DNA of 64,000 nucleotides, taken from assembly GCA_016202545.1 (NCBI GenBank), contig JACQON010000012.1, forward strand, positions 62,001 through 126,000, given 5' to 3'. Below, one piece after another: positions 18,312 to 58,993 of this stretch. Both the position numbers and the translations under genes were made by a program. The DNA is from Chloroflexota bacterium. Lineage in GTDB: Bacteria; Chloroflexota; Dehalococcoidia; Dehalococcoidales; JACQON01. The notes beneath the pieces were generated by a model, which saw only the letters and a list, made by a program, of their open reading frames with translations, ran no database searches and was not told the DNA's origin. The stretch's first letter is position 1. Each line of letters begins with the position of its first letter.

Positions 18312-19145
18312 GTGATCCCTCTTAAATCATGGAAACAAATTGAATACCGTGAAACCGGTAATGGGTCTAAAGTCATATTGCTATTTCACGGTGGTCACAT
18401 GCGGGCAATTTCTGATTCAAGCGAAGCATTCTTTGTTGAAAATGGCTATCGAGTTTTAATTCCATCCCGTCCTGGTTACGGTAAGACTCCACTAGATGTC
18501 GGTAGAAGTGCTGCTGACTTTGCTGATGTGATGGCAGAATTTATAGCAGACTTGAGTATAAAAAGTGTGACTGTTGTAGGTATTTCCGGAGGTGGACCTA
18601 CGGCCTTACAATTTGCACAACGCCACCAAAAACTAACAAACGCTTTGATTCTCCAATCGGCAGTTGGCCATGACGGATGGCCTGATACAAATACTCATCG
18701 TGGAGCTCACGTTATATTTAACTACATAACCGAAAATATAACTTGGGCTTTTATGCGCACCAGCTTTACACTATTCCCTCAGACTACTCTTAAATTTATG
18801 CTTCGAAGTCTATCTACTAAATCACCGAACGAGGCTCTAAAGACCATTAACGGTCAGCAACGAGCATCTCTAATACGGGTACTTAAACAACTACGTTCTG
18901 GACACGGTTTTCTAAACGATATCCACTATACAGTCGGTGAATTAAACGAAATAAGTGCACCTACTTTGATAATACACAGCAAGTATGATGGTAGTGTCGA
19001 CCTCAGTCATCCACGATTTTTAACAGACCATATACCGAATAACACACTTTTTATCTCGGAAGCAGAAAACCACATGTTTTGGTACAGTGATTATTATTCT
19101 GAAATAAAGGTTGAAATGAAACGATTTCTTGACTCTTTACCTTAA
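18312..19145 (+). CDS. Alpha/beta hydrolase, AT-rich
   Basis: Predicted esterase/hydrolase of 277 residues. The oxyanion strand is ILLFHGGHM near residue 25, the nucleophile elbow is VGISGGGPTA near residue 96, the Asp lies in HSKYDGSVD near residue 222 and the His in AENHMFW near residue 256, so the catalytic triad is complete. Base composition is clearly lower in GC than ftsK upstream and codon use differs (many A/T-ending codons), pointing to recent acquisition. The substrate is unknown. The start is GTG, placed directly at the predicted transcription start. Confidence 0.8.
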   Translation: MIPLKSWKQIEYRETGNGSKVILLFHGGHMRAISDSSEAFFVENGYRVLIPSRPGYGKTPLDVGRSAADFADVMAEFIADLSIKSVTVVGISGGGPTALQFAQRHQKLTNALILQSAVGHDGWPDTNTHRGAHVIFNYITENITWAFMRTSFTLFPQTTLKFMLRSLSTKSPNEALKTINGQQRASLIRVLKQLRSGHGFLNDIHYTVGELNEISAPTLIIHSKYDGSVDLSHPRFLTDHIPNNTLFISEAENHMFWYSDYYSEIKVEMKRFLDSLP

Positions 19146-48947: not shown

Positions 48948-49620
48948 TTTGCTTCTTCCTATCTATCCAGGCCTTTGCATTTCTGAAGGTATCGTGAATT
49001 GCTACAGAAATATCTTTGAAATTTTGTCCTCCCCAGATTATACCCACGTACTTCGTTTCTGGGGCAACATTATCTCCATAAATTCTGATATGCATTATGT
49101 AGCTACCAGGCTTCAAAGTATTTCTAACGCCCCTTTGCTCATACTTTGCCCATGGGAACTGGTCACCACAGATATATACCTTTTCATCTCCTTGCTGAGT
49201 TGCAAAGACATCGAGATACTCATATTCCTGACGCTTCAGGCTAATATCGCGAAAAGGCACTTCTTTCCAACTAGTACTAACCCATAAAAGCTGAGTGGGA
49301 TCAAATTGGTCTATTGCTTTTCCTTCATTACAATTCCATATTTCTATTGATTTACCAATACATCGATTAGCCACAGACCTTCCGGAATTGCTGATTCTTA
49401 TTCTAAACCAATGTGTGCCCGCTACGTCGTCACTTTGGTCAGCACGAGTAAACTTATCAAATATGGTGCTCATAGTCGTTCTACAAAATGGCTCGTCCAT
49501 ACTAAAGTCTACAGATAATTTAGGTTTTTCGCTCCACAGTTTAATTAGCAGATATATATTAAAACCAGCTATAACTGCTGTAGCCACTGAGCCAAGCGCA
49601 ATCCAAATACTTGTATCCAT
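48940..49620 (-). CDS. Hypothetical membrane-anchored protein, AT-rich
   Basis: 226 residues with one N-terminal membrane helix (about 5-27, WIALGSVATAVIAGFNIYLL) and a soluble region rich in aromatic residues and predicted beta strands (THWFRIRISNSGRS, GSYIMHIRIYG). No family recognised. Base composition is far lower in GC than the flanking CoA-transferase and endonuclease V genes, suggesting acquisition. AGAGGGGAAG precedes the ATG. A palindromic repeat (49641-49745) lies just upstream. Confidence 0.7.
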   Translation of the reverse strand: MDTSIWIALGSVATAVIAGFNIYLLIKLWSEKPKLSVDFSMDEPFCRTTMSTIFDKFTRADQSDDVAGTHWFRIRISNSGRSVANRCIGKSIEIWNCNEGKAIDQFDPTQLLWVSTSWKEVPFRDISLKRQEYEYLDVFATQQGDEKVYICGDQFPWAKYEQRGVRNTLKPGSYIMHIRIYGDNVAPETKYVGIIWGGQNFKDISVAIHDTFRNAKAWIDRKKQSD

Positions 49621-49640
49621 TAGTGCTTCCCCTCTTTATC

Positions 49641-49745
49641 TACCAAACCCCTCACCCTTTATCCCTATCCCTCTCCCCTTTATTAAGGGGAGAGGGAAGA
49701 TAATTTTTAAAATGGGCGAAGCCCCTTTTAATCCCCTCATTAAAC
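49641..49745. repeat. C-rich/G-rich palindromic repeat with a second hairpin
   Basis: CCCTCTCCCCTT (49669-49680) pairs with AAGGGGAGAGGG (49685-49696) across a 4-base loop. It is followed by a GGGC-GAA-GCCC hairpin ending in CTTTT. The copy at 53779-53878 has the same two-part design. The element fills much of the gap upstream of endonuclease V. Confidence 0.7.
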
Positions 49746-49811
49746 GCAACTCGGACATCTATCTTAACTCTTTCTTGCCCTTTTCACAACAGAACCGGCT
49801 CACCCGGGCAG

Positions 49812-53778: not shown

Positions 53779-53878
53779 CTCTATCCCCTGTATCCCCCGC
53801 CTGCCAAAGCTTGGCGGGCAGGCCTTTCCCTTCAAAGGGAAAGGGGAAGAAAAAGAAAGAGGGGCGTAGCCCCTCTTA
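53779..53878. repeat. Composite palindromic repeat upstream of the HTH/ATPase cassette
   Basis: Three hairpins in a row: CCTGCC...GGCAGG around AAAGCTT, CCTTTCCCTT pairing with AAAGGGAAAGG, and AGAGGGGC-GTA-GCCCCTCTT ending in a short U-run. The last could terminate radC transcription. The design matches the repeat at 49641-49745. Confidence 0.7.
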
Positions 53879-53924
53879 GACACCACAGATATGGGATTGA
53901 TTTAAAAGTGAAGGAAGGCATGAG

Positions 53925-54410
53925 ATGACTGAGAATGAAAAGAAGATTTTAGAGGAGAGAGCACAACAAGTGCTATCCCGCTTAAGTACCTATGCCAAAG
54001 TAAATAACCTTTCTAATAGAGAGGTTGCTCAAGAAATTGGCGTTTCTTATAACACTCTGAGGCGCTGGCGGTTTTTTACGCAAGGAAAACACGTTCACAC
54101 GCCATCCGAGATAGACATAAAGAAGATCAGCGAGTTTTTGGAAGGCAAGGAAAGACCTGAAATATATAGTCAGATTGAAGAAGCCAGGCATAGAACAGAA
54201 AAAATTAAGTATCTCTTACTTCTGCTCGAAGATGAATTACGGTGGTTTCGAGATAATAACCCTAGAGCAAGAGAGGAATTTCGTAAAGAACTTGATGCCT
54301 CTGATATCGGCTATATTTCTAGTCTTCTTACTATGCTAACAGAGGAAGACAGATTTAAGAGATGGCTTGCCCTTACCACAACTCGTTTTCAATCCTTTAA
54401 GAGGAGGTAA
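53925..54410 (+). CDS. HTH-domain protein, first gene of the HTH/GHKL cassette
   Basis: 161 residues. A helix-turn-helix lies near residues 28-50 (LSNREVAQEIGVSYNTLRRWRF). Beyond it the protein is helical and charged (EIYSQIEEARHRTEKIKYLLLLLEDEL), suggesting a coiled-coil or dimer region. AT-rich compared with radC. GAAGGAAGG precedes the ATG. The gene ends five bases before the ATPase start, and its 3' end carries the ATPase ribosome site (AGAGGAGGT), so the two are coupled. It may autoregulate the pair; this is inference. Confidence 0.7.
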   Translation: MTENEKKILEERAQQVLSRLSTYAKVNNLSNREVAQEIGVSYNTLRRWRFFTQGKHVHTPSEIDIKKISEFLEGKERPEIYSQIEEARHRTEKIKYLLLLLEDELRWFRDNNPRAREEFRKELDASDIGYISSLLTMLTEEDRFKRWLALTTTRFQSFKRR

Positions 54411-54415
54411 AAGGT

Positions 54416-56185
54416 ATGGCGAAGAAGAAAATCCGCGGAAACCTGGGGGTGCTCCTTACCCTTTTAGGAACGCTTTATGGTCGTCCTGACAATGCTATTA
54501 AAGAGTATACTAGCAACGCCTTGGATGAATGGATAAAAGCTAAAGAAAAGGGTGAAATGGAGGGTGCGTGTGAGGTAGGCTACTTGCTTGAGAAAGAAAG
54601 AATAACGATTAATTACAACTCCCCCGGGATGGATGAGAGGGAATTTGATGATGCCCTTAACAGGGTGGCGGATTCGATAAAACGAGAATCAACCATACGC
54701 CAGATTGGCAAACTGGGTATAGGAATCTTTGCCTTTAATCAGGTGGGAAGCACCTGCACCTTTTATAGTAAGAAGGCGAAGGGGACGCCTACTATTAAAG
54801 TTGTCCTTATAAGTAACTCCGATGGCTATGATATTGATACCGCTATTAAAAGGGAATCTCGGCTAAATCCCGGAATGACTATTGTCATCACTCGCTTGCA
54901 CCACGACCCAACAAAGCCACGAGGCCCTTTGGCTCCGGGCTCACTACAGCGGTTCTTTGCCGAGCAGTTTGACTCTGACCTAAGGGAAGGGAATTTGAAA
55001 GTTAGTATAAATTGTGATGACAAAATCTATGAAGTAGAGCCACCCGAAATAAACCTTCCCAGGGTTGGAGAAACCTTTTTTAGGGAAGTGCCCCTTTCTA
55101 CTGATCGGCAGAAGAAATTTAATTGCCAATTCTGGTTTGACCCGTCAGGGAAAAGCCATGTCTCGATTCGCCACATGAGGGTTCCTATAATTAAGGATTT
55201 GAAGAACTACTCAGCTTATGGGCTTGAAGAAAGCATCTATGCAAGTAGCTCTCTTAAGGGTTACATTGATGCCGATTTCCTTAAACCGCTACCGTCTAGG
55301 ACAAGCTTTGAAGAGAATCAGGACTGGGTTCAGTTCCTGGTAGAGCTTAACGAAAGACGCCCTTCACTTGAAGCGGAAATAGAAGAATTGCGTAGGGAGG
55401 AAGAAGAGAAAAGGTTAACAGAAGTCCAAAAGAGGGCTATCGAATTGGCAAGAGACATCTTAAATACAGAGGAATTCAAAGACTTAGACTTATTGAAAGG
55501 ATTGGGACGAAAACCTCCTGAACCAAGACTTCCACCTAACGGATTTGATTTTGTGCCTTCTTCAATCAGGATCGAACCCAGAAAAACCGGAACTCTTCCG
55601 TTAAAGGCTTTCGTGCCCAGGGCAGTTCCAGACAATAGCCTGGTAAAACTCAGTATTAGCGATTCTTCTTCAGTTGAATTGAAAGCAAAGAGCCTATTTC
55701 TCAGAGCATCTGAAGCTGATGAGGATGGCGTTGTTACTGTGCATGTTTCCTTTGAGGGTAAATTGAATACCACCGTTCCAGCAATTTTAACGGCAATAAC
55801 GGGAAAATTAAAGGCAGAAGCTCATATTCGAGTCGCTAAACCACAGCAAACAAGAGGACCAATTATTATTGGAAAAGAAAAGGAAGGTCGCGGAATCAGC
55901 TATACAGAGGACTATTTTGAAAACGGACCTCGTCTACATAGCGAGTTTGTGGCTGGGATAGTGCGAGTTAACAAACTTAACCCAGATTTTATTCGGCAGA
56001 AGGAAGGTTCAGAGCAGCAGAAAATCGGCTATGGCGCGCTTATGATTGGCAAGGAAGCTATTGCTCATAGTGATGGATCGGGAGTGTCAGAAAATTTTCT
56101 TGAAAGGCTACTTTCTTACCTGTTTCAAGTGCAAGTTAAAGCACGCCAAAGTCCGTTGAAGATGAAGAGACTTAGAAAAGACTAA
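54416..56185 (+). CDS. GHKL (Hsp90/MutL-like) ATPase-domain protein with altered G1 motif
   Basis: 589 residues. The N-box is KEYTSNALDEW near residue 27 (Glu, Asn and Asp conserved). The G1 box reads NYNSPGM near residue 63, where the adenine-binding Asp of D-x-G-x-G is Tyr. G2 is IGKLGIGIFAF near residue 100. A transducer-like middle region follows, with a charged coiled coil (about 315-350). Residues 375-470 look like an Ig-like beta domain (PSSIRIEPRKTGTLPLKAF). No membrane segment. Relatives include MORC-type and defence-associated ATPases, but no exact family was recognised. AT-rich. Confidence 0.75.
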   Translation: MAKKKIRGNLGVLLTLLGTLYGRPDNAIKEYTSNALDEWIKAKEKGEMEGACEVGYLLEKERITINYNSPGMDEREFDDALNRVADSIKRESTIRQIGKLGIGIFAFNQVGSTCTFYSKKAKGTPTIKVVLISNSDGYDIDTAIKRESRLNPGMTIVITRLHHDPTKPRGPLAPGSLQRFFAEQFDSDLREGNLKVSINCDDKIYEVEPPEINLPRVGETFFREVPLSTDRQKKFNCQFWFDPSGKSHVSIRHMRVPIIKDLKNYSAYGLEESIYASSSLKGYIDADFLKPLPSRTSFEENQDWVQFLVELNERRPSLEAEIEELRREEEEKRLTEVQKRAIELARDILNTEEFKDLDLLKGLGRKPPEPRLPPNGFDFVPSSIRIEPRKTGTLPLKAFVPRAVPDNSLVKLSISDSSSVELKAKSLFLRASEADEDGVVTVHVSFEGKLNTTVPAILTAITGKLKAEAHIRVAKPQQTRGPIIIGKEKEGRGISYTEDYFENGPRLHSEFVAGIVRVNKLNPDFIRQKEGSEQQKIGYGALMIGKEAIAHSDGSGVSENFLERLLSYLFQVQVKARQSPLKMKRLRKD

Positions 56186-57820: not shown

Positions 57821-57823
57821 CGG

Positions 57824-57908
57824 CGGAGGGGGTGGGATTCGAACCCACGGTCGCTTGCGCGACAACGGTTTTCAAGACCGTCACCATAGGCCGCTCGGTC
57901 ACCCCTCC
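57824..57908 (-). tRNA. tRNA-Ser (TGA anticodon)
   Basis: 85 bases on the minus strand. Acceptor GGAGGGG pairs with CCCCTCC, discriminator G. The D-arm contains GACCGAGCGGC. The anticodon stem ACGGT/ACCGT encloses CTTGAAA, giving anticodon TGA. A long variable arm (TGTCGCGCAAGCGACC) and T-arm GTGGG-TTCGAAT-CCCAC follow. The class II variable arm and G73 fit serine. CCA is not encoded (CCG follows). Confidence 0.95.
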
Positions 57909-57985
57909 TGGCTGTTTTATGAAGCTAATTTAGCCCCTTGAAGGCTTGAGATGAGTTTATATAAACCATTGTCGCTAACGGATAG

Positions 57986-58993
57986 CTAACTAAACTTTTC
58001 AACGGCCTTATTTTCAGGCTTATTATACTTTGTGGTAAAAGCCTCGTCAAAGCGTTTGGCTGCCGCCTCTTGAAGCCCAGGAGTAACGTGGCTGTAGGTA
58101 TCAAGGGTTATCTGTATACTTGAGTGCCCTAATCTCTCTTGTACTACTTTCGGGTGTATACCCTGTTTGGGCATAAGCGAGGCGTGGGTGTGTCTGGCAT
58201 CGTGAAGTCTGATAACTTTGACACCGGCACGGGCAGCCAGTATGGTCCAGGCGCGGGTAACCGTATTGGGGCGTATGGGCTTCCCGTCCAGGTGGCTAAA
58301 AACTAGGTCACCATCAGTTAGTGGTATCCCCAGCATAACCCGCTCCAGCTTCTGCTTTTCCCGGTGTTCTGTGAGTAGCAAGGTAGCTGAAGGGGGTAAT
58401 GCTACCGTTCGCCTTCCTTTAGCCGTCTTGGGTTGTCTGAAAACAATGCTGCCGTCCCTCAAATGATGCAGGCTGCGTGTTACCGAGACCTCGCCAAGTA
58501 TGATGCCCGCAACAAATCTATTTACCATTCGCTCTATAATGTCTTTCTCTTTGCTGCCTTTCTTGAGTTTCTGTGAGAGTTGCTTCTGCTCAATGATATT
58601 GTGCATTACATTACGTGTCTCTTGCTGAAGTTGCTTCAAGGCGGATTCACATTTATCCCATGCCTGTTCCCATTCATTCAAGGCATCCCACCGTACTTTA
58701 GCTATGGTATGAGTTTTAAGCGATGTAAGCAACAGTTTACGGGCATTTTGGGTAGCTCCCACATCGCGCATCCCATACGGCGAACAGTCTCGAAAGCTAT
58801 CAAGTCGCCACATTTTATCAAGAACATCCGCCGCGAGTGGCATGGAATTTGGTGAGTCGGGTACGTCCAATATCTGATTTAGCGTCCCCGCCAATGTGAT
58901 GAGGCAATGCAGGTGGTTACGGAATTCTTCCGCAGCTACATCTTTGCGAGCCGCCTTGAGTTCGTCTACGGATTTACTACGTTGCCATTCTTC
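57986..58993 (-). pseudogene. Decayed tyrosine recombinase/integrase remnant
   Basis: The C-terminal 130 residues are a phage-type integrase catalytic domain: beta-hairpin Lys in PKTAKGRR, HDARHTHAS (H-x2-R), LGHSS and the Tyr in TLDTYSHV. The segment that should carry the first catalytic Arg is missing: unrelated helical sequence runs directly into GEVSVTRSL. The frame is open upstream to a stop at 58994-58996 without a plausible start (TTG at 58894 is the only one), and the GTCATTGC repeat lies 26 bases beyond. It sits 78 bases from tRNA-Ser and marks an old integration. Confidence 0.75.

Follow-up and report, generated by a model that had tools for sequence, protein, structure and literature searches.

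In a Chloroflexota genome of the class Dehalococcoidia, radC and a gene for a family 5 solute-binding protein (Pfam) flank two AT-rich genes, one for a small HTH protein and one for a GHKL protein, and we asked what kind of module these two form and what it might do for its host. A sequence-only reading of the window, by which we mean the whole stretch of 64,000 nucleotides that was analysed, had presented the pair as a candidate undescribed accessory or defence system. Its description of the layout held up well. The tight coupling that it claimed is there, with a gap of 5 bases between the genes (54411-54415 in the ORF list) and the AGGAGG of the second gene placed inside the first. The same is true of the lower GC, which is 0.40 in the HTH gene and 0.44 in the GHKL gene against 0.60-0.61 in radC, the solute-binding protein gene and prfB, while GC3 is 0.37 and 0.41, respectively, compared to 0.74-0.77 in neighbouring genes (0.77 in both flanking genes). 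The positions of all features are collected in Table 1.

Table 1. Positions in the window of the gene pair, its sequence features and nearby elements
Feature	Position	Strand	Basis or remark
HTH gene	53925-54410	+	ORF, 161 aa
C-terminal domain of HTH protein, residues 86-159	54180-54401	+	alignment of 5 sequences
AGGAGG, ribosome site of GHKL gene	54402-54407	+	within HTH gene end
GHKL gene	54416-56185	+	ORF, 589 aa
N-box, residues 30-37 (E30, N34, D37)	54503-54526	+	intact in 8/8 clade sequences
G1 region NYNSPGM, residues 66-72	54611-54631	+	Tyr67 at adenine-binding Asp column; Met72 kept
G2 glycines GKLGIG, residues 98-103	54707-54724	+	alignment
Motif IV, Gly153-Met154	54872-54877	+	Met, where 12/12 relatives have Thr
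Charged helical stretch, residues 302-349	55319-55462	+	sequence; helix in low-confidence model
Beta-rich insert, about residues 374-476	55535-55843	+	alignment
C-terminal helical domain, about residues 491-575	55886-56140	+	alignment; common to wider GHKL family
Three successive palindromes 5' of HTH gene	53798-53822, 53823-53844, 53857-53877	.	sequence, folding
tRNA-Ser	57822-57908	-	beyond solute-binding protein gene
Incomplete tyrosine recombinase, 302 aa	57986-58894	-	residues 153-271 match Phage_integrase, E 4.4e-16

Residues 27-139 of the GHKL protein match Pfam HATPase_c_3 above its cut-off (E 1.2e-7), and among the PHROGs one family of unknown function was found (E 0.00087). The protein alone matched no chain in the PDB, and a 15-sequence profile found the N-domains of Hsp90, HtpG and TRAP1, with a best E of 2e-9, as bearers of the same GHKL fold. 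When compared by hhalign to GHKL relatives with canonical motifs, the full-length alignments reached probabilities of 99.6% (E 8e-24) and 99.8% (E 5.8e-30). Membership in the GHKL superfamily, as read from sequence comparison, rests on this fold and on the other motifs, since the G1 Asp itself is absent. The structure model of the GHKL protein, built from an alignment of 3 sequences, is very poor (pLDDT 40); it contains a predicted long helix at residues 315-349, and the charged stretch around it is probably a coiled coil, as the sequence-only reading had proposed. What that reading took for an Ig-like domain is a beta-rich insert present in only 2 of the 7 full-length clade members (the window and L006), and as it has neither a Pfam nor a PDB match we regard it as an optional add-on, which might perhaps bind a client. 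Clade GHKL proteins range from 477 to 589 aa, and no nuclease or toxin domain was detected by Pfam in either protein of the pair.

A first contig scan found relatives at two loci: L006, in a Dehalococcoidia MAG (G310) of the window's own class, where the GHKL protein is 75% identical and the same HTH gene precedes it, and L007, in an Acidobacteria MAG, where the GHKL protein is 42% identical. Profile searches added L020 (G248), L043 (G489), L033 (G479) and L047 (G855), together with a copy in G456 that is split over two contigs (L044, L045) and a C-terminal piece in G760 (L046). The clade that these sequences represent is one group against four outgroups in the tree, with a split support of 100. 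Its distribution is sparse. Within the window's class, profile search places it in 7 of 393 genomes; 12 genomes matched there, of which five (G014, G115, G467, G542 and G585) were excluded from the clade as keeping DNG at G1. In the phylum of L007, 2 of 297 genomes match. Across the window's phylum, 12 of 400 genomes matched at E 1e-8, 3 of them with clade members and 9 not counted. No relative was found on plasmids with three clade members as queries in turn, in phages with the window protein as query, or on viral contigs, where both the clade and the wider canonical relatives were sought.

Comparison of synonymous and non-synonymous changes indicates that the GHKL gene is under purifying selection, with a dN/dS of 0.12 between the window and L006 and of 0.15 between L007 and L047, both of which are solo copies. 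Given this ratio of 0.12 and relatives at 75%, about 50% and 42% identity, the frame is more than a chance ORF. For the beta-rich insert dN/dS is 0.25, and for the HTH gene it is 0.24 between L043 and L068, while dS is saturated between the window and L006.

In gyrase, MutL, Hsp90 and MORC, adenine is classically contacted by the Asp of motif G1 together with the Thr of motif IV. The sequence-only reading had noted that the GHKL protein retains the N-box (E, N, D) and the G2 glycines but carries Tyr in place of the G1 Asp, and this was borne out by MAFFT, with 15 and again with 20 sequences, and by hhalign, all of which align Tyr67 to the Asp column. The motif-IV Thr (GT step) proved to be replaced as well. 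Among the 8 clade sequences that cover the region (G456 as an N-terminal piece only, the C-terminal piece of G760 being left out), the G1 column holds Tyr in seven and Cys in one (L033), and the motif-IV column Met in seven and Leu in one. By contrast, all 12 relatives outside the clade, including two MORC-like proteins, keep both the Asp and the Thr. All 8 clade sequences retain E30, N34, D37, the G2 glycines and Met72. The Tyr placing is less sure in L007 and L047, where the alignment opens a gap of one residue at G1 (DY-PYGM) and an Asp could be placed there instead. The residue before the Tyr or Cys is Asp in 5 of the 8 sequences, L007 and L047 included, and a neighbouring Asp shifted in this way might still read adenine, which counts against an altered pocket.

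In MORC2, as described in PMC5811534, Asp68 forms a bond with N6 of the adenine, which is further supported by Thr197 and stacked upon by Met73, while Glu35 is the general base, Asn39 holds Mg and Lys427 is contributed by the S5-like domain. The equivalence of these residues with their clade counterparts is our own reading of the alignment. Both adenine contacts are thus exchanged in genes that dN/dS shows to be maintained, and the N-box, G2 and stacking Met are kept, a pattern that suggests altered base recognition in the clade rather than decay. Precedent for a changed G1 comes from histidine kinases, in which Asp to Asn is known; PMC10017428 describes VanS proteins with Asn that bind ATP weakly and cites a report of GTP preference in another kinase. 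A double exchange of Asp and Thr as in the clade was not found described in the titles and abstract openings of the literature searched. The loss of both contacts in all clade members, together with the weak ATP binding of the VanS proteins, would also fit a pseudo-ATPase scaffold with a degenerate nucleotide site. We consider this unlikely, as decay would not spare the catalytic Glu, the Mg-binding Asn and the G2 glycines, which are invariant in 8/8 sequences.

Other stand-alone GHKL proteins (L048, L049, L050 and L003 in the same phylum; L024, L025 and L027) share with the clade the homologous stretch from the GHKL domain to the C-terminal helical domain. Unlike the clade, these canonical-G1 relatives have both adenine-pocket residues, Asp and Thr, in place, and tblastn found no HTH partner of this family alongside them. 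In six of six such or similar sequences (L048, L049, L050, L003, L002 and L022) the N-box Glu column holds Gln (KQFVEN), with a Glu three residues later, a further unusual form of GHKL protein in the class.

The pairing of the two genes, which the sequence-only reading had called a cassette, is real but not invariant. A full-length HTH gene stands directly 5' of the GHKL gene in 4 loci (window, L006, L020 and L043). No HTH gene was detected by tblastn beside the GHKL gene in L033, L044, L045, L046 and L047, nor in the 455 upstream bases covered in L007, and the GHKL copies without an adjacent HTH gene in L033, G456 and L047 indicate that the HTH protein is not obligatory. In the tree the members with an HTH gene are not grouped together, with support of 33-77 at the deciding nodes. 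The reverse case is found in G472 (L068), where the HTH frame is intact and only a short stretch resembling the start of the GHKL gene, read by eye, follows it; this stretch has no Pfam match, and a search of the G472 genome, which is 71% complete, gave no hit to the GHKL profile.

Neighbouring genes differ in every genome and are mostly housekeeping genes; their names were read from translations unless given by a Pfam or TIGR02249 match. The pair in L006 lies beside an MFS-like transporter gene, after tyrS- and serA-like genes, that in L020 between genes for ribonucleotide reductase and a purL-like protein, and that in L043 beside a leuB-like gene and a gene for an M50-like peptidase, while the solo copy in L007 adjoins cysD/cysN-like genes. 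An M50-like gene is near the HTH gene in both L043 and L068, which come from one family. A site related to that of L020 is available in L084 (G500, of the same family as G248), the only one of 11 other loci examined for the reductase-purL site that covered the purL-like gene. There, the reductase and purL-like genes face each other across 824 bases that hold neither HTH nor GHKL, which implies that two relatives carry different content at the same place. This AT-rich gap (L084:671-1500) contains broken pieces weakly like DUF433 and DUF5615/PIN.

Composition follows the pairing: GC3 lies below that of the flanking genes in the paired copies of the window, L020 and L043, and slightly so in L006, and is close to a flanking gene's in the solo copies L007 and L047. 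The claim that the pair is accessory and has no match in the family libraries therefore stands, given its patchy occurrence, AT-rich composition where HTH-paired, new site in each genome and one related site without the pair. Judged from the sequences compared, it is a stand-alone accessory module of a small, patchy clade. The neighbours read are mostly of the housekeeping kind and do not make up a defence island, nor is there a fixed neighbourhood. The same data bear on whether the GHKL protein is a chaperone-like or nucleoid-structuring clamp of general function, spread by transfer and only tuned in its expression by the HTH protein. Its best matches in the PDB are to Hsp90 and HtpG, the broad relatives are likewise stand-alone genes, and the GC3 of the solo copies is near that of their surroundings. 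Even so, the presence in 7/393 and 2/297 genomes without fixed neighbours makes such a general role distinctly improbable, as does an NCBIfam HSP90-family score of 27.2 where the cut-off is 455 (the MutL score was weak as well).

Two mobile-element contexts were considered and rejected. In L047 the GHKL gene lies next to an integron integrase gene (L047:309-1304, TIGR02249, 447 bits against a cut-off of 265), which is divergent from it and 127 bases from its start, as for a first cassette. Only 31 bases separate the GHKL stop from the next frame, too little for a typical attC, and the integron cassette reading was dropped. In the window, the tRNA-Ser gene and recombinase (57822-58894) look like what is left of an integrated element, at a distance of about 1.6 kb from the pair. 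An integrative element at tRNA-Ser that includes the pair was rejected, as the GC-rich solute-binding protein gene separates them.

The HTH protein has an XRE-like HTH at about residues 10-75, followed by a conserved helical C-terminal domain. Its Pfam matches are to HTH families and all fall below the cut-offs. The predicted structure has a pLDDT of 68 overall and about 80 in the HTH part; Foldseek returned 0 matches at E 0.001, and the likeness of the model to HipB, SinR and C proteins includes none below E 0.05. Among 5 HTH proteins, the C-terminal domain has 33 invariant columns out of 75 and the HTH part 7 out of 83; the former is the more identical in 10/10 pairs. In our reading, the HTH part binds DNA and changes to suit local sites, and the C-terminal part serves for docking and is kept by a conserved partner.

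Gene order and coupling are also those of a toxin-antitoxin system, with the HTH protein as antitoxin and autorepressor and the GHKL protein as toxin. The resemblance of the HTH model to HipB, SinR and C proteins, weak as its E values are, would agree with this, as would the retention of the HTH gene alone in G472 and the fragments weakly like DUF433 and DUF5615 in the G500 gap. Nevertheless, we judge it very unlikely. GHKL copies occur without an adjacent HTH gene in L033, G456 and L047, where an unlinked antitoxin is possible, but a toxin without its antitoxin should not persist, and purifying selection acts on the solo copies in L007 and L047. At 477-589 aa, the GHKL protein is also large for a toxin.

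We then weighed the defence role proposed for the pair by the sequence-only reading and found no support for it. Neither window protein matches a model in PADLOC-DB 2.0.0. A further set of 10 proteins comprised 5 window neighbours, one L006 neighbour, the L069 fusion described below, two HTH proteins and L033. There was no match for L033 or for the L043 HTH protein, a weak Orf5 match for the L020 HTH protein (E 0.00043) and a weak JAB match for RadC (E 0.0021). Run on 15 GHKL sequences, PADLOC returned weak matches to TmtA (best 8.7e-6), REase_II (0.0065), MzaB (0.0039) and PDC-S05 (0.038), none of which was for the window's protein. No defence gene was seen beside the pair among the neighbours examined, and no description of this pair was met in the parts of the GHKL and defence literature that were searched.

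Known systems resemble the pair only in part. Prokaryotic MORC and paraMORC1-5 proteins, as described in PMC2292703, are likewise patchy and mobile; theirs is a GHKL domain followed by an S5-like region. The S5 signature GhXhhpXXRhl given there is present in 0/15 of our sequences, and the sole Morc6_S5 match in Pfam is weak (L047, E 0.026). The clade also differs in its altered G1, and no helicase, methylase or nuclease neighbours were seen. PMC13373217 describes CapK, an HTH-STAS-GHKL kinase, beside the DNA-binding protein CapS, a STAS-wHTH repressor, which recalls the arrangement here; in contrast, Pfam matches of the pair down to E 1 include no STAS domain, and its GHKL domain is of the HATPase_c_3 type. 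Similarly, VcSduA (Shedu) has an N-terminal GHKL domain and then a proposed clamp-like middle region (PMC12137116), whereas no DUF4263 nuclease match was found in the pair, again up to E 1. By the features compared, which are all of sequence, the pair is not MORC, HtpG, CapK or Shedu; with Hsp90 proteins the clade shares the fold, but its Asp and Thr are replaced, and neither Pfam nor NCBIfam gave an Hsp90 family match above cut-off.

An anti-phage system, in which the HTH protein represses the operon and the GHKL protein detects a product of infection, either a nucleotide or a state of the DNA, and then blocks replication or kills the cell, would account for an accessory, patchy and AT-rich pair. 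It would have company in VcSduA and in CapK as a regulator, and in the MORCs and paraMORCs that occur beside restriction systems (PMC12137116, PMC13373217 and PMC2292703). A similar HTH is, in addition, fused to a dGTPase-like HD domain in L069:5574-7185 (Pfam HD 7.1e-7; PADLOC dGTPase 3.4e-8). The PADLOC results, the mostly housekeeping neighbours, the lack of a Pfam nuclease or toxin domain and of relatives in the phages, plasmids and viral contigs searched all speak against such a system, and we rate it as fairly unlikely in this specific form. More broadly, a defence role of the pair is possible, and its biological role would most likely lie in some conflict with mobile DNA. The L069 fusion adjoins a frame with a weak Peptidase_M78 match.

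The best explanation of the whole, to which we assign a probability of about 0.45, is an HTH plus GHKL nucleotide-gated clamp module that is gained and lost among genomes. The HTH protein would bind DNA through its HTH, most likely at its own promoter and perhaps at other sites, and would dock on the GHKL protein by its conserved helical C-terminus. The GHKL protein would be a homodimeric clamp of GHKL and S5-type domains, of the broad Hsp90/MORC/MutL kind, in which Mg-nucleotide closes the N-terminal domains. The charged helix, together with the C-terminal domain, would keep the dimer joined and grip a client, either DNA or protein. The nucleotide that gates it may be other than ATP, or no base may be read at all, as the adenine-reading residues are replaced and the phosphate and Mg machinery is kept. 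Through the HTH protein, the switch of the clamp would be tied to DNA or to operon expression. In this model the clamp is suggested by the family, the nucleotide switch by the residue pattern and the docking by the conservation pattern.

A bolder version is that the clade has switched its nucleotide with catalysis kept, such that the clamp is closed by GTP, by a modified nucleotide or by one used in signalling, and the HTH partner turns this into a response at the level of DNA, possibly against phages or plasmids. We put it forward tentatively, with the odds against it. If the clade has lost both contacts and yet kept its catalytic site, nucleotide choice in GHKL proteins becomes testable with one purified protein, and with the pair the accessory genes known from little-studied bacteria would gain a possible sensor module.

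Finally, we examined the composite palindromic repeat that had been reported before the pair. Palindromes are there, three in succession. Of 200 shuffled versions, 198 fold less well as RNA than the region itself (z -2.69); the third palindrome has a T-run and looks like a minus-strand terminator. A REP-like repeat family was rejected, since the first palindrome has only 2 sites in the 1.74-Mb genome with up to 3 mismatches, the other one imperfect. No palindrome common to the upstream regions of five HTH genes was found. Elsewhere in the window, a hydrolase-like gene at 18312-19145 (GC 0.40, GC3 0.30) forms an AT-rich island among GC-rich neighbours, and an AT-rich stretch with no evident gene (49000-49750, GC about 0.40) precedes an endonuclease V-like frame.
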